This document shows, in pieces, positions 10,574-21,438 of a DNA stretch of 63,631 bases. Made by a program: the position numbers and the translations under genes. The notes beneath the pieces are model-generated. The model had not been told where the DNA came from. It was given only the letters and a program-made list of their open reading frames with translations, and searched no databases. The stretch lies in the NCBI GenBank assembly GCA_017548275.1, contig JAFZAH010000017.1:1-63631 (forward strand), in the 5' to 3' direction. Each line of letters starts with the position of its first letter. Within the stretch, counting starts at the first letter, position 1. The stretch is from Prevotella sp. Its GTDB lineage: Bacteria; Bacteroidota; Bacteroidia; Bacteroidales; Bacteroidaceae.

Positions 10574-11635
10574 TCAAAATATGTTATAATACTCCTTGAT
10601 GTCGCGTTCGCGCATGAGCAATGACACGCTACTCTCCATGAGCGATGTCCGCCTGATGTCTTGATTACGCCACAACTGATTATGCGTAGCGAAGTATGTC
10701 AGCATATTAAACAACTCCCACACCGTGCTCTCGCTCTTGGCTTGGGCCATATGCTGCGAGTCGGTGGGGTAACCGGCTCGTGCATATTTGTCTTTTGTCT
10801 GCTCATAAGGAATGATGACGTTGGCTTCTTCTGGCGACATCCCGTGCTTGTTCAGCAGTTGAACTGCTGCGCCGAGTTCGCGCACTGATGCGGTTGTTCT
10901 CATGGCTGTCCTCGCACTCAACAACATTGTTTCCGTGTTGCTTTTCAACAGTGCCGAATCTGATGTTACATTCAACAACCGTTCCATTGTTGCCACGTCG
11001 GGGGAATTCGCACGGGTGATGGAGTGGTATGACATCTGTGTGGCGCCATTCAGGCATACCAGTCGCTCATAGTAATTACCCATGTTGATTTCGCCGGGAT
11101 TCCATTTCATATAAAGCCCGTTTGAAAGAAACTCATCACCGGGCGCATATTCCATGAACTGCTCTTTGACGGGTCTTAACAGTATGGATATGCCGTTGTT
11201 CTCATGGGTTGCATACTCCACTTGTTCGGGCAGGTATTGATTCTTATCCATAAACATTTCAGCGAAGCCGAAAAACACATCTGGTGTTATCATGCTGTCC
11301 TTGATGGGAATAGCCTCAACTATCTGCTTGCTTTGAGTGTTAGCGGCGAGAACGAGGTGTTTGCCCTTCTTCCCTTCTGCCTGACCGAAAAAGTTGCGAA
11401 GGTTGGTCACACCCTGCTCGCCGTAACTGTCATGTGCTATTTGTGTCTGTCCGCGTTTGATTCCGGCAAAACGGTCAATCTCTTTGGCTACGTTACTGGA
11501 AACCTCAAACGTGGCGTTGCCGACACTGTAATGATTCTCGCCCAAGGCTACAATCTCTTTTGCCTCTACCATCCGATAACATATCGGGGTGTCAAGAATC
11601 TCATGCTTAATCTGGTAATAATTTTCTGTGTCCAT
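10574..11635 (-). CDS. DUF932-like (phage/plasmid-like) protein
   Basis: This 353-residue soluble protein is tentatively assigned to the DUF932 group, which is frequent on phages and plasmids. The assignment rests on overall layout: an N-terminal beta-rich part, a central segment ending in NYYERLVCLNGATQM (about residue 190), and a C-terminal helical part with a VWELFNMLTYFATH segment (about 315). No catalytic motif is evident. Its start lies 2 nt after the stop codon of the RadA-like ATPase gene, which implies a shared transcript and probably a shared function, plausibly DNA recombination or replication of a mobile element. The family assignment should be treated as provisional. Confidence 0.55.
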   Translation of the reverse strand: MDTENYYQIKHEILDTPICYRMVEAKEIVALGENHYSVGNATFEVSSNVAKEIDRFAGIKRGQTQIAHDSYGEQGVTNLRNFFGQAEGKKGKHLVLAANTQSKQIVEAIPIKDSMITPDVFFGFAEMFMDKNQYLPEQVEYATHENNGISILLRPVKEQFMEYAPGDEFLSNGLYMKWNPGEINMGNYYERLVCLNGATQMSYHSITRANSPDVATMERLLNVTSDSALLKSNTETMLLSARTAMRTTASVRELGAAVQLLNKHGMSPEEANVIIPYEQTKDKYARAGYPTDSQHMAQAKSESTVWELFNMLTYFATHNQLWRNQDIRRTSLMESSVSLLMRERDIKEYYNIF

Positions 11636-11637
11636 AA

Positions 11638-12624
11638 TTATACTATCTCATTGTTGAATAAACGGTCAAATTGTGTGGCGAAATCACGCAACTGAGTTGT
11701 GACGTTGTTCTGCAGATTGCGTAGTTGTAAGTCTTGTTGATAACGTGCCTCATCAAAAAACACGTCGCCCGCGCCACTCAGGCTATAATACAGTTTCACG
11801 CCCACATCGCCACGACGGTGCTTGGAAAACACGATATAACGGTCGCTGTAGATGTTTTTGGGGTTGTCAAAGCGTAATTCCATCATGGCGGTTATCATGT
11901 GTTTCAAACGGTTAGAACCGATAAAGGCTCCTCTCTTGGTCACTTGCTGAATGGTGAGAAACGTTGTATGGGTGCGCAGGTTGTTATTGGCTTTGTTATG
12001 GCGTTTTATCAGGGCAAGCAACTTGGCCTCTGCCAGGCGCATCGTGATGTTCTCCTCTTCTTTGATGATTCCCTGCAGTTCATAAAAAGAGTCGATGGCC
12101 ACGATATCCCATCCCTGCTGCAACACGTTCTCAATCTTTTCCAGATGATGGCTGTTCCCGTCAAAATCTGATTCGACAAACAAAATGTTCAACTCTCCGA
12201 ATTTAGGATAGCGTTGCACATATATAGCCAGGTCTATCTCGTTCATCTCTGCGCTGATGAATAGAATACGCGCATCGTTTTTATGCTTCTCGATATTGGC
12301 TATCATATCAAGGATAATTGTGGTCTTGCCCACACCGGGGTCGCCGATAATCATATAATTCACGCCCTTCGGCAAACCGATGTAACTGCAGAGCAGATTG
12401 TCGAGAATGGTTCCTGAGCGATAGTTCACAAACAACCCTGATTCAAACGGCACATCACGCATTTTTACTATTTCGTTTGGTTGACTGTTGTCGTCATGGA
12501 GTCCGCCCTTGTGAGAGGTGGTGTCATTGATGTCAGCTTCCATCGTTTTCGATTCTTTTGGTGTTTTCATCGTTCTTTTTTTGTTCATGCTTTCTGGCTG
12601 CAAAAATACATCTGGATTCGTCAT
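11638..12624 (-). CDS. RadA/RecA-like AAA ATPase
   Basis: This 328-residue ATPase of the RecA/RadA/DnaB superfamily has Walker A GDPGVGKTT (about residue 93), Walker B DIVAIDSF (about 170) and a RadA-like ISAEMNEIDLA segment between them. The zinc finger and Lon-like domain of true RadA are absent, so this is a stand-alone core, as in phage or plasmid helicase/recombinase accessory proteins. The first 40 residues are polar and probably disordered. It heads the unit ATPase, DUF932-like protein, with a promoter at 12756-12763 and a 125-nt leader. An alternative reading is a KaiC-like regulatory ATPase. Confidence 0.75.
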   Translation of the reverse strand: MTNPDVFLQPESMNKKRTMKTPKESKTMEADINDTTSHKGGLHDDNSQPNEIVKMRDVPFESGLFVNYRSGTILDNLLCSYIGLPKGVNYMIIGDPGVGKTTIILDMIANIEKHKNDARILFISAEMNEIDLAIYVQRYPKFGELNILFVESDFDGNSHHLEKIENVLQQGWDIVAIDSFYELQGIIKEEENITMRLAEAKLLALIKRHNKANNNLRTHTTFLTIQQVTKRGAFIGSNRLKHMITAMMELRFDNPKNIYSDRYIVFSKHRRGDVGVKLYYSLSGAGDVFFDEARYQQDLQLRNLQNNVTTQLRDFATQFDRLFNNEIV

Positions 12625-12834: not shown

Positions 12835-12863
12835 AAAAACCCCCGCCAACTGGTGGCAGAGGT
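12835..12863 (-). terminator. Repeated-module terminator, copy 4
   Basis: On the minus strand the hairpin ACCTCTGCCAC-cagtt-GGCGGGGGT is followed by TTTTTGTTTTCTTTGCATCG. It lies downstream of the PLD nuclease gene. It shares its tail (TTTGCATCGTGAA) with the degenerate copy near 9.4 kb. Confidence 0.7.
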
Positions 12864-13014
12864 CTTAAAAAATCGTGATTAAAATCTAGGAGATTTTAAC
12901 AAAAATACCCATGAATAATCAATCAATTTTAAAAATTGAACCATTCACGGTCATTCGTGGCAATTCATGTATGTTTCAGGAAAAAATGGTGTCCTTTTTC
13001 TCCCTTTTCGAGAA

Positions 13015-13072
13015 ATATTCCTCCCTTGGGGAGGGTTAGGGTGGGTGTTTCTAAAGGGTCAGGGCGGGTTTA
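13015..13072. repeat. G-rich palindromic intergenic repeat
   Basis: The run CTCCCTTGGGGAGGGTTAGG followed by GTGGGT and AGGGTCAGGGCGGGTT is a copy of a G-rich palindrome also present at 59813-59874 and in shorter forms near 42.54, 48.52 and 51.95 kb. The stop codon and last residues of the PLD gene lie in it. Together with the terminator module and the ATPase promoter it accounts for the gene-free stretch 12625-13058. Confidence 0.65.
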
Positions 13073-13580
13073 TAATCGGGTCTGGGCAGAAGTCTCGGCG
13101 TTTGCAGGTCTTGCAGTGTTTGCCTATCCATACCTCGTCAAACTGATTCATGGCCTGCTCCACGATTTCCGGGTCATCGGTCAGGATGCCGGCCTCGAAG
13201 TTGCGGGTTGTCTCCGCTTTCATGCCTATGCCGGCACCCGTCAGGTTCGCACTGCCAATATACACCTCTTTTCCGTCGAATACCAACATCTTAAAGTGTA
13301 CTCTCGGACAGAGCACACGTTCCAGACGGTCGTACAGCACCGGATAGCGGTCAAAGTCCTCACGGAAGTTCGGGCCGGGCTCCTTCGCGTGTATCAGCCT
13401 CACCTCCACACCCCTCCGGATGAGTTGCGCCAGAATCGCCAACAAGGGTTTCTTCTCCCCATCAACCTCCACATACAGGTCCTTGATGTCAGCGGTCCCC
13501 ACCCAAAGCAAGTGTTTCACGGACAGCACCCGTGAAAGCACTTCTTTGTAATGGGAGGAGTTGGAGATGTAGGTCAACAT
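13059..13580 (-). CDS. Single-HKD phospholipase D-family nuclease
   Basis: This 173-residue protein has one complete HKD motif, HxKx4Dx6GSxN: H95, K97, D102, G109, S110 and N112 (in HFKMLVFDGKEVYIGSANLTG). Small single-HKD PLD proteins usually act as dimeric endonucleases (Nuc, BfiI type) rather than lipases. A C-terminal cysteine group (H155, C156, C159, C165) could bind a metal. The start codon overlaps the end of the second DUF262 gene by 7 nt, which indicates coupled translation, so it is best read as the nuclease component of that operon. The last residues (DPIINPP) are encoded by a G-rich intergenic repeat, so the natural C-terminus may have been replaced. Confidence 0.82.
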   Translation of the reverse strand: MLTYISNSSHYKEVLSRVLSVKHLLWVGTADIKDLYVEVDGEKKPLLAILAQLIRRGVEVRLIHAKEPGPNFREDFDRYPVLYDRLERVLCPRVHFKMLVFDGKEVYIGSANLTGAGIGMKAETTRNFEAGILTDDPEIVEQAMNQFDEVWIGKHCKTCKRRDFCPDPIINPP

Positions 13581-16003
13581 AGCCCTTCTCTTTTATCATC
13601 TATTGCTTGTTTGATGAGATTGTCTAAACTACGGAAAATATAGTTAATAATGTCTTTATTCATAACAAAATAATACCTATTATGCCAACTATCTTCCTCA
13701 TCGTAGTTTTTGAGTACACTTCTTTTCCACCCTTTTGTCATTAAATAAATCTTATTATCGCCTTCCCATCTAAAGAAGTGTCCTAAATATTTGAAATTGA
13801 TATCCCAACAACAGAAACAGTCACAATTATCAATTTTATAATTAGAGTCAATTCGAATAACGTGATATTTAACTAAACTTGAAAACACAGTGTTACGACA
13901 ATGCATTTCGTCTAAAACAATGTTACCGTTAGCCTTCCAAGTACGCCCTTCTGTAGCAAATAGATACGGTTTGTTTTCTTTCAAATACCTTCCCCTGCTG
14001 TTATTTAATATTTGAGTTTCAACAAGTTCTTTAATCCATTGAATCTGAATGTCGGATTTAATAGCGTCTTTCTTGAGATTGCGGAAACATTTAATTAATA
14101 CCTCATCATTTAAACAAGGTTTTAATTTATCCAAGTCCAAACTCTTCCAAGGCTTATCTTTGTTACAAAAAGATAGTAATATTTTTATAAAATGATAATT
14201 GTCTTGATTGTCCAACAATTCCTTGAATAAAACAAATCTTGTGTCGAAATCTTCCTTTTTTTCATAAATAATATACCTTTTTTCTTCATCTAAATTGAAC
14301 AATGCAGAGATTTTACCTTTCATAAATTCATGTGTTTCAACCGTTATAATCAGATTTTCCCAAGAAGCCTCCGTGGTGGCGGTCTGTGCGTTGTCGCTCA
14401 GGGTGGATGTATTATCTTTCAATATTAGTATTGCTTTTGCTATTTCTTCGGCTAACTGTTCTTTTGCGTGGTATTGATTTTCTAACTCGAAAGAATCAAA
14501 ATCATTAGCTAAAGCAATGTAAATGTCATGGCTTCTTTTTGAAAGTTTTTCTATTAGTCTTAATGCAGCTTGATAGGTGTCAGGACTATCAATGGTTGAA
14601 TTTTCGATGATGTTCCATACCACACGCATCCATTGAGACAACAGTTTCGTGTCAATTTGATCAGTTTCAATTCCAACATATTTCATCAAAGCATAAAATG
14701 CAATACGAGACGGGTACGTTTCCCTGTTATTATTATTCTTATCACCACGATATAAACTCCATTGCGGTTCTTTTTCATCGCGATTCCAAACCGCCTGACA
14801 AGCATTTTCAATGTAATAGTTTTGTATACATAATTCATCACAAATATTAAATATTGGAGTGAGGCACATATCTATACTGCACTTATCCATTATATATGAA
14901 TATATATCGAATGAAACGAAATCATCTTTTGTGGGATATAATGGCATTTCTTTTTGGATTCTGTAGTTGAAATAATCCCATTCTATTTGCTTGTTCTTTT
15001 CGTCTTCAGATAATTTTTCGTAATCTTTCTCTGTTTTAGTTTTTTTTGCATACCAACACCGCCAAACATTCATAAAGTGTCGATTGAAGAAACTCATCAT
15101 CAATGAATCAGGTAACTCTTTTTCTTCATTTTCTTCTTTGTTTTTGTTGGCGATGTTCCAAAATAAATCTAACCAACTGCCATCAATGCCTGTATATTTT
15201 TGCAGCGATTCCTCATACTGGCCTTTTAGTCTAATCAAAAGTTTGTTGCATATTTCTTGCTTTTCTGTATCTTTATTTTTCTTCTCATCAAGATATTGTT
15301 CCAAACTAGCCTTGAAATTCTCAAACGGTGTAAGTTGTTTGCCACGAGCATTCATTTTAACGTATGTTTCATCGGACAACTTATGCTCGCCCATATCTAC
15401 AAAATGGAATGTTATCGGGCAGTTGCAACCGCTTGTGAGCCTTTCAGCAATTGTTTTGAAATTCTCTGTCATTTTCATCTGATTATGAATTGCATCCAAC
15501 ATTGTAAGCATACCCATTACGGTTGGATCTTTTTGCCAGTCTGGATAGAACCAAGGCAGATTCTTTATGTTCTCTGACACTTTTTTGTCATCGGAAGGAA
15601 TAACAATCTCTTGCACCAATTTTTCACAGAACTCACGAGAAGATTGGCGAGTGGCGTAAGAGAATCGGCCAAGAATACTTTTACATATGCAATTGTCTTT
15701 ATGACGACAATCGGATCCAGATAGACATTTCTCAAAAACATATTTATGAAACAAGAACAACGTGGTCAAACGTTGTTGCCCATCAAATGGTATGAACTTG
15801 TTGCCATTAACTCGTCCATAAACGAAATCAAAAAATAATGTATCATTTTCGTTTTCAACTACGTTTTTCATTTTCTCAACAAGAGATTTTCTAACATCAG
15901 CAGCTTTCGCATTGTCACGTCCCTGAGCATAATCTCTTTGAATGATTGGTATCTCTATTTGATATTTGCTAATCAACTGATAGAATGAATATATATCGTT
16001 CAT
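13574..16003 (-). CDS. DUF262 protein, second of a pair (no DUF1524 seen)
   Basis: This 809-residue protein carries the N-terminal DUF262 (GmrSD N-domain) signatures IPIIQRDYAQGR (18-29) and FDGQQRLTTLFLFH (73-86). In characterised GmrSD, BrxU and SspE proteins this domain binds nucleotide and controls a nuclease. After the DUF262 motif comes a cysteine group (C93, C99, C105, C107), and another cluster near the C-terminus (NCDCFCCWDINFKYLGHFF). The C-terminal half lacks a recognisable HNH/DUF1524 domain, unlike its upstream partner. Start and stop overlap both neighbours (4 nt with the first DUF262 gene, 7 nt with the PLD gene). It is AT-rich compared with the flanking core genes, consistent with transfer. 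Confidence 0.85.
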   Translation of the reverse strand: MNDIYSFYQLISKYQIEIPIIQRDYAQGRDNAKAADVRKSLVEKMKNVVENENDTLFFDFVYGRVNGNKFIPFDGQQRLTTLFLFHKYVFEKCLSGSDCRHKDNCICKSILGRFSYATRQSSREFCEKLVQEIVIPSDDKKVSENIKNLPWFYPDWQKDPTVMGMLTMLDAIHNQMKMTENFKTIAERLTSGCNCPITFHFVDMGEHKLSDETYVKMNARGKQLTPFENFKASLEQYLDEKKNKDTEKQEICNKLLIRLKGQYEESLQKYTGIDGSWLDLFWNIANKNKEENEEKELPDSLMMSFFNRHFMNVWRCWYAKKTKTEKDYEKLSEDEKNKQIEWDYFNYRIQKEMPLYPTKDDFVSFDIYSYIMDKCSIDMCLTPIFNICDELCIQNYYIENACQAVWNRDEKEPQWSLYRGDKNNNNRETYPSRIAFYALMKYVGIETDQIDTKLLSQWMRVVWNIIENSTIDSPDTYQAALRLIEKLSKRSHDIYIALANDFDSFELENQYHAKEQLAEEIAKAILILKDNTSTLSDNAQTATTEASWENLIITVETHEFMKGKISALFNLDEEKRYIIYEKKEDFDTRFVLFKELLDNQDNYHFIKILLSFCNKDKPWKSLDLDKLKPCLNDEVLIKCFRNLKKDAIKSDIQIQWIKELVETQILNNSRGRYLKENKPYLFATEGRTWKANGNIVLDEMHCRNTVFSSLVKYHVIRIDSNYKIDNCDCFCCWDINFKYLGHFFRWEGDNKIYLMTKGWKRSVLKNYDEEDSWHNRYYFVMNKDIINYIFRSLDNLIKQAIDDKREGLC

Positions 16004-17925
16004 ATTTTACTCTCCTTTACTTTCACACCATACTTAATTTCTTCGTTCTCAATCGGCAAAATTGCTTCAAGTTGCAAGTATGATGCGATTACTTTTGCCA
16101 TTGTAGTAACATACTCAACTTCAGCTTGTTCGTCCCAAATAAACGGATTCATGGAACTCGGCGAATAATGTTTGAAAAACACGTTTCTTGTGCAAATAGG
16201 TACAAACATAGACTCTTTTTCAACATTTTCGTATTCTGCTAACTTTGTTCTTTTTTCAGCATACAGCTTGTTATTAAATGCTGCATTCTTGTCGCCTTGT
16301 AAAAGAGCCATATTGGTCAGGTGATCGTCTTTCACAAAGTCCTCTGTTAAAACAAATGTGCTTTCGTTCCTCTTTACTCTTATACCCATCATAGCACCAA
16401 CTATAACCTTATAGAATGGAAATTGACCATTTTCTTCAGTTGTAATGATAGTTTTATTTATAGAATTAACGAAGTCTGTCATCATTTTATCCACAGTGTC
16501 AGGTTCATTGGCAGTAAATCGAAATGATTTTGCAAATTGCTTGAGTTGAGCGATTTCATCTTCTTGCCATTCTGTTTTTGGTTTAGCATTTTGCGCGTGA
16601 ATGTGTTCCAGCGACCATTTCTTTTCCGCTGCTTCAAAGTGTTTGTCAAACGGATAACGAGAGACTTCGCTTATTTGATTCTGAGTGGTTGCAAGATTGA
16701 ACAACAATAGGACATTATGGATTTCTTTGTTGTTCTTACCATATTCCCAATTTGCAAAATCTACATTTTGCTTTTGTTCGCTTATTCCTAATGATCGCTG
16801 GCAGCGCTCAATCAAAGAAGATAAAAACTTGTTTTTAGTCTTGTCTGCTTCGCATAACAAATCTCGAAGCATTTCCATCTTTTTGTTTCCTTTCAAGTTC
16901 ATCAAATAACCCACATAATGGTATAATTGTCTATCATCATACCACGATTTCATTATACGGAAGCATCTTTGAATTGTGCACCATTGCTTTTCCCAACCGT
17001 CATCATTAATTAGCTTTGAGTATGTTGAAAAAATAAAGTAATCATTTAACCGCAGTTCCTTATCGATGTCATATTTGTATTCGTATTTGTTTTCATTCTT
17101 CTCATCGGTTTCTTCCTTTTCGCTACGCAGAACCATTTCCAAAAGGAAATCAATTCGTGTGCAGTTGAATCTCGCATTTTTTGGTTCTGGATTGATAAAG
17201 AACCAAAAAGAATTGTCGTGCAAGGTTTGCTCCATTCTATCCCATTCACCAGCCATTTCCAGTTGTTTTAGACATAGAGCATCAGCGCTCATTCCTCTGA
17301 AATTGTCATCTTTCAACAAAAGAGCTTTTATCAACTCGGCATTACTCAGTGATATTTTGCCTGAATTAAGTCGTTTAAAAACGTCGTATGCATTATCCTG
17401 GGTTTCATACCATATTACTTTGCAAGAATTCTTAAGTTTCTCTGCAAAGTTGGGTCCCAAATTGTCTTTCTTTTCACCAACGACTTTTTTCGTTGAAAGC
17501 ATAAAATGGAAATCAATGTTTGAATCATCTTCCTCACTTTTACTATTTATTCCATTCAAAAACTCGCCACTTTTAGGGCGTGTTTGATATTGAATAGTAG
17601 GAAACTTACTATTCTCTTCCATTGTTTTCAGAATGATGTAGATTGTAGTCAACCTTTGTTGCCCATCAATCACCTCATACCAATTCTTTTTGTCATTTTC
17701 TGGCAAACGAGAATCTTTTTCCTCCATTTTTTTTATCACCAATGGTTGCAAGCAGTACCATGTTTTTTCTTTTGAGTCGGGTAGTTCTTGCGGTTCGAAG
17801 TCTCTCAGATCATTCAACAAATCTTTCACTTGTTGTTCTGTCCATCTATATCCACGCTGGTAACTAGGTATAAAAAACTTCATGTCAAGAAGTTCACAAA
17901 CAGTTTTTAGTTCTATATTAGCCAT
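16000..17925 (-). CDS. DUF262-DUF1524 protein (GmrSD-type type IV restriction)
   Basis: This 641-residue protein has an N-terminal DUF262 domain with IPSYQRGYRW (19-28) and VIDGQQRLTT (85-94). A C-terminal DUF1524 HNH-type nuclease region begins with SLEHIHAQN (438-446) and continues to LTNMALLQGDKNAAFNNK (about 537-554). This is the domain order of fused GmrS-GmrD enzymes, which cut glucosylated or otherwise modified phage DNA in a nucleotide-dependent way. It begins 2 nt after the small 76-residue gene and overlaps the second DUF262 gene by 4 nt. With the PLD gene it forms one transcription unit. The target modification cannot be predicted. Confidence 0.88.
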   Translation of the reverse strand: MANIELKTVCELLDMKFFIPSYQRGYRWTEQQVKDLLNDLRDFEPQELPDSKEKTWYCLQPLVIKKMEEKDSRLPENDKKNWYEVIDGQQRLTTIYIILKTMEENSKFPTIQYQTRPKSGEFLNGINSKSEEDDSNIDFHFMLSTKKVVGEKKDNLGPNFAEKLKNSCKVIWYETQDNAYDVFKRLNSGKISLSNAELIKALLLKDDNFRGMSADALCLKQLEMAGEWDRMEQTLHDNSFWFFINPEPKNARFNCTRIDFLLEMVLRSEKEETDEKNENKYEYKYDIDKELRLNDYFIFSTYSKLINDDGWEKQWCTIQRCFRIMKSWYDDRQLYHYVGYLMNLKGNKKMEMLRDLLCEADKTKNKFLSSLIERCQRSLGISEQKQNVDFANWEYGKNNKEIHNVLLLFNLATTQNQISEVSRYPFDKHFEAAEKKWSLEHIHAQNAKPKTEWQEDEIAQLKQFAKSFRFTANEPDTVDKMMTDFVNSINKTIITTEENGQFPFYKVIVGAMMGIRVKRNESTFVLTEDFVKDDHLTNMALLQGDKNAAFNNKLYAEKRTKLAEYENVEKESMFVPICTRNVFFKHYSPSSMNPFIWDEQAEVEYVTTMAKVIASYLQLEAILPIENEEIKYGVKVKESKI

Positions 17926-17927
17926 AT

Positions 17928-18158
17928 TTAATTGATTTTGTCCAACTTTTCAAATTCAAAATCATTCACTGAGCAGCATGCTTTTTTGTAATCAAACTGA
18001 TACATACGCATGTATTGCTCTTGTATTTCCTTCGCCCCGTTATAAAATGGAGTGGTGGTGTGCGACCGTGTGGTGACGGTGAGGGTCATGTCTGGTGTCA
18101 GCACCTGACCATTTGCGCGCTTGATACGCTTAGGGGTGATTCTAAAGACTTTGCTCAT
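17928..18158 (-). CDS. Small basic conserved-type protein (DUF6140-like)
   Basis: This 76-residue protein opens MSKVFRITPKRIKRANGQVL and ends FDYKKACCSVNDFEFEKLDK. The KxTPKRxxxxNGxxL opening followed by a beta-rich core and YKKAC resembles small DUF6140-like proteins of Bacteroidales mobile elements; that family name is a recollection of pattern, not a search result. It has no membrane segment. It lies 2 nt before the first DUF262 gene, so it is probably translated from the same message and may be a regulator or cofactor of the system. Confidence 0.6.
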   Translation of the reverse strand: MSKVFRITPKRIKRANGQVLTPDMTLTVTTRSHTTTPFYNGAKEIQEQYMRMYQFDYKKACCSVNDFEFEKLDKIN

Positions 18159-18162
18159 AGGC

Positions 18163-18417
18163 TCATAGTTTAAAGATTTTTTGATTTAAATATAAAAAGA
18201 GCGGGAACCATCTTCCAGTCAATCTGGTTGTGTAGACTTCTCGCATAGCCCAAATGTCCAAATCAACAGAAGCGGCCCACGCCCTATGCAGGAACGTGAA
18301 CATTCGCTTAGCTGTTATTTGACACATTTGTTTCATTTTGCGAGAATTACACAAATCAAATGACCAGCTTGTGATGTTCATATCACTTTTTGCCCTCAAT
18401 GTCTTTTGGTCAATCAT
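18163..18417 (-). CDS. Possible 84-residue leader ORF before the DUF262 operon
   Basis: An open frame starting MIDQKTLRAKSD runs to 4 nt before the 76-residue gene. It is basic and aromatic (RKMKQMCQITAKRMFTFLHR, then WFPLFLYLNQKIF) and matches no family I recognise. Its ATG lies only about 10 nt from the predicted transcription start, leaving no room for a ribosome-binding site, so the region may simply be a 265-nt untranslated leader. If this frame is not real, 18163-18526 holds only the promoter at 18436-18467. Confidence 0.25.
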   Translation of the reverse strand: MIDQKTLRAKSDMNITSWSFDLCNSRKMKQMCQITAKRMFTFLHRAWAASVDLDIWAMREVYTTRLTGRWFPLFLYLNQKIFKL

Positions 18418-18435
18418 AGATTGTTTTACCGTCTG

Positions 18436-18467
18436 CAAATTTAAATGAAATTGTTTGGATTTGCAAA
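18436..18467 (-). promoter_or_regulatory. Promoter of the DUF262/PLD operon
   Basis: An exact Bacteroidetes-type promoter on the minus strand: TTTG (18464-18467), 20 nt, then TAAATTTG (18436-18443). It separates the exonuclease gene from the DUF262 operon and indicates that the operon can be transcribed on its own. Confidence 0.75.
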
Positions 18468-18526: not shown

Positions 18527-19018
18527 TTACAATATCTCCCTCGCAATCCATGCGCACGCCTCGGCGTCGGCAAGTGCATGGTGATGATTCTCCAGACTGT
18601 AGCCACAGGCGGCAGCCACGGTCTGCAACTGGTGGTTTTCCAGATATGGGAGCACTCGTCGTGAGGCGCGGAGCGTGTCGTAAAACTCATAGTCGGGGTA
18701 GTCCATCCCATAAACGCGGAACACGGCGCGGAGACACCCCTCGTCGAATGGCTGGTTGTGTGCTACCAGCGGCAATCCCTCTATCAACGGCTCTATTTGC
18801 GCCCACACTTTGGGAAAGACCGGCGCTTCCTCCGTGTCCTCGCGGCAGAGCCCGTGTACCTGGCTGCACCAGTAGTTATAGTAGTTCGGCTCAGGCTGGA
18901 TGAGCGAGTAGAACGTATCCGTTATCTCCCCGTCCCTAACAATGACGATGCCCACCGAACACACCGAACTTCTCACGTTGTTGGCCGTCTCAAAATCTAT
19001 CGCTGCAAAATCTCGCAT
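18527..19018 (-). CDS. DnaQ-like 3'-5' exonuclease (DEDD family)
   Basis: This 163-residue exonuclease domain has all three Exo motifs: AIDFETAN (Exo I, D8 and E10), VAHNQPFDEGCL (Exo II, about residues 84-95) and HHALADAEACA (Exo III, about 146-156, DEDDh type). It is a stand-alone domain, as in proofreading-like or RNA/DNA-trimming exonucleases. It follows the PD-(D/E)XK gene by 16 nt on the same strand, and that gene follows the YopX-like gene by 15 nt, which suggests a three-gene unit. It could be a housekeeping exonuclease trapped in the island, but the spacing argues for a joint role. Confidence 0.88.
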   Translation of the reverse strand: MRDFAAIDFETANNVRSSVCSVGIVIVRDGEITDTFYSLIQPEPNYYNYWCSQVHGLCREDTEEAPVFPKVWAQIEPLIEGLPLVAHNQPFDEGCLRAVFRVYGMDYPDYEFYDTLRASRRVLPYLENHQLQTVAAACGYSLENHHHALADAEACAWIAREIL

Positions 19019-19034
19019 ACATTATGATTTCCTA

Positions 19035-19601
19035 TTATCTCAGTAAATCTTCTATCTTGTCCCACCTGTCCTCGGCAATTTTCTGCCCATTCAGAGAATG
19101 AGAACCCAAAGGGTTTTGATATTCAGGATACGTATATTTCTGAGTACTCTTTCCTGGTTGATTATTTCCTTCCAACCATTCCACGTTAACACCAACTATT
19201 GGTTTGCTTTTCAGTTCGCGGTTCCATTCTGTCACATACCAATGATTACTCGAAGTGATTAATTCTTTGACCTCATCTTTTGATAAAATATAGAATTTCA
19301 TTTCTGAATAGTTTTCTTTAGGTATATACACAAATACCCATGGGCCAATAAATGAAGTGTCGATGTTTGGTATTGTGCCATCTAGTTCAGAAGTGAAGCC
19401 TGTCAATATGTTGTGCGTCGTGCCTGTTTTGACTTGTATCATAACACTTTTTCCTGTTTCAGGGTTCATACAAACTAAATCGGCATTCTTATAATTTTGA
19501 AATGAGTAGTTGATATTGATTACATCATAACCTTTCTTCAGCAACTCCAAGGCTACAGCAGTTTCGCCTATAGCTCCCAATTTATTCAAATTTTTTATCA
19601 T
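19035..19601 (-). CDS. PD-(D/E)XK-type putative endonuclease
   Basis: This 188-residue protein begins with a restriction-endonuclease-like fold: an N-terminal helix with GAIGETAVALELLKKGYDV (conserved E at about 13), then ADLVCMNPETGKSVMIQVKTG, giving the D...QxK version of the catalytic core (D at about 41, QVK at about 57-59). This arrangement is typical of small PD-(D/E)XK nucleases. The second half (after about 75) is beta-rich and unassigned. It is flanked at 15-16 nt by the YopX-like and DnaQ-like genes. The protein is AT-rich in coding composition. The function is inferred from motifs only. Confidence 0.65.
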   Translation of the reverse strand: MIKNLNKLGAIGETAVALELLKKGYDVININYSFQNYKNADLVCMNPETGKSVMIQVKTGTTHNILTGFTSELDGTIPNIDTSFIGPWVFVYIPKENYSEMKFYILSKDEVKELITSSNHWYVTEWNRELKSKPIVGVNVEWLEGNNQPGKSTQKYTYPEYQNPLGSHSLNGQKIAEDRWDKIEDLLR

Positions 19602-19616
19602 TTTTTGAATTCATTT

Positions 19617-20312
19617 TTATCTCCAATCATACTCTACTCCCAATATCTCCAGTGCACTATATTTCCAAAACTCCTGATCGAAGTTTGGTGTATATTGTGC
19701 CATGATGACTTTTTCTTTTCTTTCCTCTTCCGTATCTCGCCAGCCATTGAATTCCATAGTGCGTTGATTGACTCCAACGTAGTCGCTTGGATTCAACCGA
19801 TAAAATACGGTGCCGACACGTGTCAACCGATAATGCAGCCGGATACAATCTTCTAAATCCCAGTTATGATTGTCGAGGATGAAACAATACTGTCCCTCCC
19901 CATCCTCATGGCTCCAAGCCCCAACAGCCAGATGTTCCGTTCGTTCTTGATCCTTTTCTATCTGGATGACATCGCCGGTATAAATATTCTCGCCGTTGCT
20001 GTCCTTGAAAGGTGTCTTAACACCGGCAAAGAGTACCCTTCGGGCATAGCCTTGCCTTTTGCATTCATTACCGAACACATCCTCCACGACTTCCGGATTA
20101 TGGTCTTCTTCATACTTTTCGTCCTGCTCCCATACATAGAAGTCATCTTCATAGAAAAAGAAATTGCCGAAATAGGCATACCCGAATTCTTTGGCTTCTG
20201 CCACATAGCGGACTTTTATGTCTGGCAGGGATTTGTTCTTGCCTGCACCAATCTCATGCCGGTACTTCTGGCAGAGATACTTTAGCGTAATGTCACTGAT
20301 TGTCATACCCAT
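19617..20312 (-). CDS. YopX-like phage-type protein
   Basis: This 231-residue protein contains FKDSNGENIYTGDVIQIEKD (about 102-121), the hallmark of YopX-domain proteins found in phages and mobile elements. The surrounding sequence is acidic and aromatic (YEEDHNPEVVEDVFGNE), with no signal peptide. The N-terminal 60 residues and the C-terminal end (DQEFWKYSALEILGVEYDW) are extra to the YopX core. Its function is unknown. It starts a tight run with the PD-(D/E)XK and DnaQ-like genes and lies 154 nt after the WYL regulator, from which it is separated by a long inverted repeat. Confidence 0.65.
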   Translation of the reverse strand: MGMTISDITLKYLCQKYRHEIGAGKNKSLPDIKVRYVAEAKEFGYAYFGNFFFYEDDFYVWEQDEKYEEDHNPEVVEDVFGNECKRQGYARRVLFAGVKTPFKDSNGENIYTGDVIQIEKDQERTEHLAVGAWSHEDGEGQYCFILDNHNWDLEDCIRLHYRLTRVGTVFYRLNPSDYVGVNQRTMEFNGWRDTEEERKEKVIMAQYTPNFDQEFWKYSALEILGVEYDWR

Positions 20313-20466: not shown

Positions 20467-21438
20467 CTAACTCCTGCTGTCAGTTGAATCGTTATATTTC
20501 TCCCACATTCTCTTAATCTTTTCCGCAACCTCTTCCCGAAGCCAGAGCGGTTCAAGCACTTCTACATCCTCGCCGTTCCAGAGTATTTCCTGTTGGAAAT
20601 CAAAAGAGGGACGGAGATGGTAGGTGAAGACGCTGTACTCCTCGTTGCTTTCTGTTTCTTCTTGCGACCAGTGCAGTTTCAGGTCGCGGAAATAGTTCGC
20701 TTGTCCTGCCGACACTTTCAACTTCACGGGCTGGATATCCACGCTCTGGTCGGCGATGATGCCAAAGCAACCGTCAAAGAACTCCTCTGCAGTCCAGTCT
20801 TTCGGCATGTCAAAGGTCTCGTCTGTCATGCTCAATTGATGAATGCGGTCGAGCGCGTAAATGCGCGGTCCTTTTTCGTAATAATAGGGGTAAGTGCTCC
20901 GTGCCACCATGTACCATCGCTGGCGGAACAATTTCACACAGTAGGGCTGCACGTCGAAGTTGTTCTCCTCGTCCTTCCAATAACTGTGATAAGTGATGTT
21001 AATCACACGGTTTTCCTTCATTGCCCCGATGATGGGGTGCAGATACTCCTGGCCCGACGGCACATACTCCAGCAGGATACGGTCTTTGATGCCCTGACTG
21101 TTGACCAACGCATTGCTCACGCTGAATGTGTTGTAAAGCCATGAGCGAAGTCCGTTGCCGTTGATGTCTTCCATGTTGTCTATATAGTAGCGGTATTCGC
21201 CACGGTTTTCGTTGACGATATCGATGCCGAACATGTCCCAGATGACACTTTTCCAGTTGTCAAAGGTGCGCTTCGACAGATCCACACCTCTGCTGATGTC
21301 GGTGTCGCGGAGCCACAACTCGTTCAGGTCTTTGAATGAGATTTTCTTTCGGCGGTAGATCGTCTCTATCACCCACACGTATTTGCTGATCAGACTCATC
21401 CCTCGGCTGTTGTCAATAAAGGTCTTTTTTTTTGCCAT
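20467..21438 (-). CDS. WYL-domain transcriptional regulator
   Basis: This 323-residue protein has an N-terminal winged-helix region (LSKRTFDNWKSVIWDMFGIDI, about 55-75) and a WYL domain (about 140-215) with INITYHSYWKDEENNFDVQPY and LFRQRWYMVARS, followed by the usual C-terminal WCX-like extension (about 235-310). WYL regulators sense nucleic-acid ligands and often control defence islands (for example BrxR and CapW). It is transcribed toward the YopX/PD-(D/E)XK/DnaQ and DUF262 operons, so it is the best candidate regulator for them. The operator was not identified. Confidence 0.9.
   Translation of the reverse strand: MAKKKTFIDNSRGMSLISKYVWVIETIYRRKKISFKDLNELWLRDTDISRGVDLSKRTFDNWKSVIWDMFGIDIVNENRGEYRYYIDNMEDINGNGLRSWLYNTFSVSNALVNSQGIKDRILLEYVPSGQEYLHPIIGAMKENRVINITYHSYWKDEENNFDVQPYCVKLFRQRWYMVARSTYPYYYEKGPRIYALDRIHQLSMTDETFDMPKDWTAEEFFDGCFGIIADQSVDIQPVKLKVSAGQANYFRDLKLHWSQEETESNEEYSVFTYHLRPSFDFQQEILWNGEDVEVLEPLWLREEVAEKIKRMWEKYNDSTDSRS

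Follow-up and report, generated by a model that had tools for sequence, protein, structure and literature searches.

A pair of adjacent DUF262 genes, here called D1 and D2, lies in a 63,631-nucleotide stretch of Prevotella sp. DNA (the window; assembly GCA_017548275.1, contig JAFZAH010000017.1), and we put at roughly 0.7 the probability that they encode a GrwAB-kind restriction system of two proteins, belonging to the GmrSD family (type IV, modification-dependent), and form the present core of a modular defence cassette. The proposed cassette has fixed ends and an exchangeable core, and its order is a WYL regulator gene, optional genes, an exonuclease gene (EXO), the core and a PLD-family nuclease gene (PLD). 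In the window, where every feature described here is on the minus strand, the left arm consists of a WYL/WCX-domain transcriptional regulator (20467..21438; Pfam WYL 1.1e-13, WCX 3.8e-12) and EXO, a small DnaQ-like DEDDh exonuclease (18527..19018; Pfam RNase_T 1.1e-19), and the right arm is PLD, a 173-residue single-HKD nuclease (13059..13580; Pfam PLDc_2 2.7e-15). An earlier note on this DNA had recognized the four-gene run that ends in PLD and drawn its left boundary short of EXO and WYL; in related loci these two genes, on the same strand upstream, belong to the same unit, which is thus larger than the four-gene run. Across cassettes the arms are homologous and the cores are not.

Constant arms and unrelated cores

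Thirty-one loci, the window included, carry WYL, EXO and PLD in order, and the 465 pairs that they form were compared by blastn. Coverage of at least 50% was found for WYL-EXO in 413 of the 465 pairs and for PLD in 464, against 8 for the core, while the flanks outside the cassette were similar in 2 of 406 measurable pairs (2 kb upstream of WYL) and 13 of 435 (2 kb downstream). In four loci with different cores, L279 (PDDEXK_4), L289 (DUF262 pair), L304 (a second DUF262 kind) and L283 (McrBC), a shared stretch of DNA opens about 70-160 nucleotides (nt) upstream of WYL and closes near the EXO end, and shared DNA resumes at about the PLD start; downstream DNA is 87% identical between L279 and L304, which therefore occupy the same site.

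The tree tests, all of them quick searches, addressed ancestry. Core class required 23 changes on the PLD protein tree (shuffled mean 21.7; 188 of 200 shuffles as low) and 22 on the PLD DNA tree (shuffled mean 21.4; 152 of 200 as low), counted over the 46 of 80 rows with a core label and leaving the 34 unlabelled rows uncounted, and a single group of 13 PLDs, supported at 99%, contains all four labelled core classes. On these weakly resolved trees, core type does not track PLD ancestry. The arms co-vary with one another (Mantel correlations of 0.62 for WYL-EXO, 0.44 for EXO-PLD and 0.33 for WYL-PLD; 0 of 2000 permutations as high) and not with core class (-0.07 to 0.00), and their mutual correlation may be partly due to host relatedness. 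Cassette EXOs also cluster on the EXO tree (29 of 69 rows; 10 changes versus 22.3-22.5 when shuffled).

The range of cores was surveyed by scanning named genomes with the PLD alignment, which gave, from the best 80 of at least 500 relatives, 79 loci (69-92% identical). Seventy-seven of these were assigned to Bacteroidales or Bacteroidia, many of them from rumen or gut, and the other two (L254, L261) to Firmicutes families, possibly through binning errors. The same-strand run before PLD holds a pair of the D1/D2 kind in 21 loci, so that the gene order singled out in the earlier note does recur elsewhere; this count includes L247, where the pair precedes a second, upstream PLD, and L286, where three genes separate pair and PLD. 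PDDEXK_4 cores were found in 10 loci, McrBC in 6 and a second DUF262 kind, or pair b (GmrSD_N+DUF7834, then GmrSD_N+GmrSD_C), in 9, a label that needed at least one of its two proteins: both are present in three loci (L237, L265, L304) and one in L244, L246, L248, L255, L259 and L312, with L248, which also holds McrBC, counted as pair b. The loci tallied as 'other' include L239 and L267, though Pfam gave PDDEXK_4, and L270, which is McrB-like with no McrC label. Core identities come from Pfam on 30 and PADLOC on 10 proteins of cassette loci, the remaining loci being labelled by similarity, and the annotations include GmrSD pairs, McrB-like/McrC, Mrr_cat and PDDEXK_4 (McrC 3.8e-52, GmrSD_C 4e-13, Mrr_cat 3.6e-13, PDDEXK_4 9.9e-22); the PDDEXK_4 core proteins match the PADLOC candidate PDC-S26. 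The cores are thus mostly restriction-type, and among the core-position genes with no Pfam family over cut-off are the 425-residue protein of L130 and those tested from L247 and L293.

Where at least 8 kb of upstream DNA was available (56 named PLD loci), a same-strand WYL was present in 34, EXO in 30 and both in 28, and 38 of the 56 carry one of the four labelled restriction-type cores. Among 44 PLD loci that have no upstream EXO gene, three (L235, L286, L290) carry, where the core begins, a remnant of 53-105 nt from the EXO 3' end, apparently a scar of recombination or decay; in 13 others EXO is matched at the edge of a contig or somewhere else in the locus. In three loci from genomes of the family (L125, L127, L147), PLD follows EXO directly, with no core gene, and in L296, L298 and L300 it directly follows WYL, likewise with no core gene; all six are possible empty cassettes. 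The named and family sets overlap (L237=L153, L238=L124, L243=L084, L253=L126, L302=L133, L303=L134).

PLD is probably made from the transcript of the core, whichever core that is, because the core ends close to PLD and no promoter motif stands before PLD. The nearest same-strand gene ends at most 50 nt before PLD in 54 of 74 loci, window included, and for labelled restriction-type cores PLD lies at most 50 nt behind in 38 of 46, overlapping the core in 11 of those. With single-base shuffles as controls, the full motif TTTG-N20-TAAATTTG, which we take to be the Bacteroidetes promoter motif, is found in the 200 nt behind EXO in 10 of 31 cassettes (shuffled mean 0.07) and before WYL in 3 of 29, where the TAnnTTTG half is present in 22 of 29 (shuffled 2.8); in the 200 nt before PLD the full motif was found in 0 of 31 and the half motif in 4 (shuffled 3.0). 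In the window, the motif at 18436..18467 is the sole minus-strand match in 12-23 kb (single-base shuffles average 0.09) and precedes a run of four genes, encoding a 76-residue DUF6140 protein (17928..18158; Pfam 4.8e-8), D1 (16000..17925), D2 (13574..16003) and PLD; 2 nt separate the first two genes, the second and third overlap by 4 nt and the last two by 7 nt. The earlier note had described genes, junctions and promoter correctly, and its view of one compact operon, whose products are probably made together, is supported.

Several observations weigh against this picture of a modular unit. The 31 cassettes were picked by PLD similarity together with WYL and EXO matches, and because of this choice the similarity of their arms is raised; some core match, usually short, occurs in 80 of the 465 pairs; and the PLD trees are weakly resolved, good support being limited to 8 and 18 of 77 inner branches. 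Among the 79 PLD loci, 13 have no same-strand core and 20 have other genes in its place, some of the contigs being short. Cassette EXOs do not form one clade. Many EXO genes of the family stand alone, and the window EXO is nearest to such a copy, so that the role of EXO may be incidental. The pair itself occurs mostly without PLD, which is near D2 in 5 of the 39 family genomes with D2, and the presence of PLD is partly clustered on the D2 tree (12 changes versus 17.3 when shuffled; 3 of 500 shuffles as low).

The DUF262 pair and its relatives

D1 (641 residues; Pfam GmrSD_N 6.1e-34) combines DUF262 with a DUF1524 His-Me (HNH) nuclease in a GrwA/TgvB-like build, its GmrSD_C match lying under the Pfam cut-off (E 0.0064). 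D2 (809 residues; Pfam GmrSD_N 3.4e-19) joins DUF262 to a long C-terminal part of unrecognized fold, a GrwB-like build in which Pfam found no HNH family and no GmrSD_C match, and the His-Me H...N...N nuclease is thus in just one of the two proteins. Across 19 D1 sequences (alignment A3, window included), the motifs QR (Q23R24), DGQQR (D87-R91) and FxxxN (F183-N187) and the His-Me residues EHI (440-442), N538 and N547 are all invariant. In D2 the corresponding positions are Q22R23 and D74-R78, with Y214xxxN218 in place of FxxxN, and its relatives have QR, DGQQR, N218, K523, E556 and G563 in common. The two cysteine clusters of D2, listed as a feature in the earlier note, are common to only 1-4 of 19 sequences (window included), and a conserved zinc site was rejected on that count; a separate cysteine, C126, is present in 12 of 19. 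L269 (both proteins), the partial D1 of L299 and the second D1 of L240 were omitted from the alignments. Compared with solved structures, the D1 profile matched 9jfl (3.3e-20), SspE (1e-15) and 7p9k (0.0028), the last of which we take to be BrxU. The D2 profile (A2) gave weak matches, with E values between 4.8e-8 and 8.9e-5, to SspE and to 20yv/20yw (a DUF262 protein), and no other solved structure was matched under E 0.05. According to PMC11662687, 9jfl is DndI.

The pair is a further member of a recently described two-gene GmrSD family, of the GrwAB kind. Pairs of distinct DUF262 proteins, for which the earlier note, with a PLD nuclease as third member in view, named no described system, are already in the literature as TgvAB (PMC11411939) and GrwAB (PMC12137116; see also the review PMC12409362). 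In GrwAB, from the WASA lineage of V. cholerae, the first gene, GrwA, encodes DUF262+DUF1524 and the second, GrwB, DUF262 and a long part of unknown kind, and alanine in either NTP (nucleoside triphosphate) motif, or at H431, N521 or N530 of GrwA, abolishes protection (PMC12137116). The window pair shares with GrwAB the adjacency of two genes (overlapping by 4 nt in the window), an N-terminal DUF262 (GmrSD_N) in both proteins, the HNH gene in first place and the spacing of catalytic residues (R91-H441 in D1 and R81-H431 in GrwA are both 350, N538-N547 and N521-N530 both 9); the second gene likewise encodes DUF262 with a long unrecognized C-terminal part, the agreement of D2 with GrwB being one of length and build only. 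GrwAB differs in that the accessible text of PMC12137116 describes no WYL, EXO or PLD alongside it, a Shedu gene coming after the pair.

TgvAB, from the V. cholerae island VPI-2, also comprises two DUF262 proteins, one with DUF1524, both of which are required, and relatives are reported in Bacteroides fragilis (PMC11411939). Its DUF262-only gene appears to come first, judging from the locus numbers VC1767 and VC1766, whereas in the window the HNH gene leads, and because the gene order differs TgvAB was rejected as a name for the window pair. GrwB and TgvA are also called distinct outside DUF262 (PMC12137116), and TgvAB is embedded in a type I restriction-modification (RM) locus (PMC11411939), whereas no hsd genes were recognized by Pfam among the 10 window proteins scanned. 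Surroundings of the type I RM kind, named by eye, were seen only at other loci of the pair (L019, L024-L026), and an earlier survey reported that DUF262 genes tend to adjoin GmrSD homologues and type I RM genes (PMC4619093). GmrSD, BrxU, SspE and DndI resemble D1 in joining a DUF262 NTPase/sensor to a DUF1524 His-Me nuclease but are described as single proteins (or GmrS plus GmrD) that have no DUF262-only partner.

Relatives of D2 were matched in 11 of 395 genomes sampled from the class, its own included, and in 39 of 301 family genomes. A D1 relative is directly upstream in 39 of 47 retrieved D2 loci, broken in L058 and L060, and among the eight loci that have no adjacent D1 (L027, L028, L068, L071, L087-L090), some were hidden by picking open reading frames (ORFs) by length, as in L071, diverged or cut. 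Seventeen plasmid records matched D2, three of which were inspected: two annotated DUF262 genes adjoin in a Bartonella record, with a WYL gene upstream, and in an Aliarcobacter record, and the upstream DUF262 gene of a Paraburkholderia record is a short fragment.

The tie between the pair and PLD is loose. The PLD motif HxKx4D...GSxN (H95, K97, D102, G109, S110, N112) is invariant in 16 of 16 sequences (alignment A1, window included), and PLD was matched in 44 of the 301 family genomes. Eleven of these genomes hold both PLD and D2, six of them on different contigs, and PLD stands just after D2 in five: the window, G610, G413, G426 (with one intervening gene) and G476 (where PLD is broken). Of the 39 retrieved D1-D2 loci, 4 have a PLD gene after D2; L058 and L066 break off at D2 or close to it. 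On a D2 tree of 54 rows, 22 of them with PLD (a quick search with no mixture model, L243 omitted as a copy of L084), at least nine of the 12 changes in PLD presence are forced by well-supported branches; PLD next to D2 has been gained or lost many times, though its presence is partly clustered. The earlier note had treated PLD as a specific part of the pair, and this is not supported, since PLD so seldom follows D2 and also ends McrBC, PDDEXK_4 and other-core operons; on the same 4 of 39 loci and 12 changes, PLD was rejected as an obligatory third subunit. Carriage by phage was considered and rejected, PLD relatives in viral contigs numbering four. In L142, L143 and L144 unlabelled genes precede PLD relatives of about 60% identity, in stretches with no EXO or WYL, two of the three short. 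Two PLD copies with at least one gene between them are found in L247, L265, L267, L281 and L313, which suggests tandem cassettes.

Proposed action and rival explanations

From GrwAB, TgvAB, SspE and DndI, and with the relevant residues present, we infer that D1 and D2 would form one complex in which each DUF262 domain would bind NTP, hydrolyse it and recognize the modification or backbone state of invading DNA, which the His-Me site of D1 would then cut. The view in the earlier note of a GmrSD-family restriction role with the HNH protein as likely cutter is supported. WYL may control expression, by analogy with BrxR-type WYL regulators, which likewise adjoin type IV restriction genes; the accessible text of PMC9122601 describes no constant EXO and PLD arms round an exchangeable core at such loci. 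EXO and PLD, encoded with any core, might act as general nucleases that process cut DNA beyond repair, a role that is pure conjecture. Over evolution the core would be replaced and the arms kept, probably through homologous recombination in the arm genes. Tentatively, and with rather less confidence than the main reading of a GrwAB-kind core in a modular cassette, the whole may be a purpose-built exchange cassette of gut Bacteroidales, whose arms (with EXO as a 3'-5' exonuclease) provide both shared regulation and DNA degradation and the homology for swapping restriction cores between strains; new cores, mostly of the restriction type, could then join a unit already equipped for expression and degradation.

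It is also conceivable, at a similarly tentative level, that the arms mark a hot spot only, where WYL, EXO and PLD hitchhike with no joint job, and that the two DUF262 genes by themselves form a complete GrwAB-like system. Such hitchhiking would fit the protection given by V. cholerae GrwAB and TgvAB as two-gene systems (PMC12137116, PMC11411939), the frequency of EXO as a stand-alone gene, the 4 of 39 D1-D2 loci in which PLD follows D2 and the repeated changes of PLD presence on the D2 tree, at least nine of the 12 by well-supported branches. Against it stand the want of a promoter motif before PLD in 31 of 31 cassettes, the distance of at most 50 nt between PLD and 38 of 46 labelled restriction-type cores (with overlap in 11) and the co-variation of the arms with each other and not with the core.

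PLD might instead be a defence effector or toxin in its own right, for which the cores serve as sensors or triggers, as the presence of PLD in loci with very different cores, its place right after EXO, with no core, in L125, L127 and L147 and a DrmC-like PADLOC match (3.6e-10) would allow; however, the labelled cores themselves match nuclease families, D1 keeps its His-Me site intact and GrwAB protects as two genes with no PLD gene (PMC12137116), and we consider this explanation unlikely. DrmC of DISARM and other defence PLD proteins belong to the same PLD family with weak matches, and DISARM membership was rejected because the DrmC score of the window PLD is under the family cut-off (NCBIfam 45.1 bits, cut-off 133) and no other drm protein was matched among the 8 window proteins scanned with PADLOC. 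Still less probable is a phosphorothioate-sensing self/non-self system like DndI or SspE in place of modified-base restriction: the best solved relatives of D1 by sequence are DndI (9jfl, 3.3e-20) and then SspE, but the two-protein build is GrwAB-like and no dnd or ssp modification gene was found among the proteins near the operon to which the search was confined (10 by Pfam, 8 by PADLOC). A GrwAB-kind restriction system at the core of a modular cassette remains our preferred reading.

Accessory genes, surroundings and wider meaning

The EXO sequence has D8/E10, D92 and an HxxxxD end, which we take to be the DEDDh motif. EXO was rejected as a defence-specific marker: relatives at E 1e-25 are present in 188 of 301 family genomes, and among the ORFs around 40 EXO loci, hand-picked and so giving no rate, there were one WYL (downstream) and no PLD. 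Two optional genes separate WYL from EXO in the window. One encodes a YopX-like protein (19617..20312; Pfam YopX 4.1e-5), and such a gene also follows WYL in L067, L084, L238, L242, L243, L248, L269 and L288 (L243 being the same contig as L084); the other encodes a 188-residue protein with a weak, below-cut-off UPF0102 resemblance (19035..19601; Pfam E 0.0033), relatives of which occupy the same place in L269, L288 and L215. The DUF6140 protein is a recurrent accessory whose relatives precede other, unrelated cores (L123, L129, L130, L236, L239, L244, L248). A RhuM-family gene is a frequent companion before the core (L124, which is L238; L153, which is L237; L248; L265; by eye also L130 and L152), with a Fic-domain match in that of L124, and a second close WYL relative (61%) lies on a short contig of the window's own genome (G000:C41:3-848).

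Beyond PLD, an intrinsic-terminator-like hairpin (12836..12866; 13-pair stem, T-rich tail) could end the transcript, and DNA resembling it lies about 20 nt past PLD in L236, L238 and L243. A terminator-like element of about 50 nt is repeated in the window (12872-12823, 10525-10461, 9150-9109) and also occurs right after PLD in some other cassettes. Farther on, 10574-12624 encodes a RecA/KaiC-like ATPase (328 residues) and a 353-residue protein with a weak DUF932 match, relatives of which directly precede a PLD gene in L295, and a similar-looking pair of an ATPase and a protein of about 355 residues stands before PLD in L148, L150 and L151 (by eye); the window's ATPase pair may be another core. 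No tRNA genes were found in the window, and a tRNA integration site was rejected on that ground.

WYL regulators beside type IV enzymes are already known. A cassette with such arms was not found in the literature searched, a weak absence given that most subscription papers were outside reach, and the accessible parts of the two nearest papers, PMC9122601 and PMC11090510, contain no comparable arms. If the arms serve every core, one gene set would make a single type of defence unit out of many different restriction enzymes. The exchange of restriction enzymes in rumen and gut would then be readable from sequence, the widespread single-HKD PLD protein would have an assignable role, and WYL-EXO upstream with PLD downstream would be a marker for finding new restriction cores.

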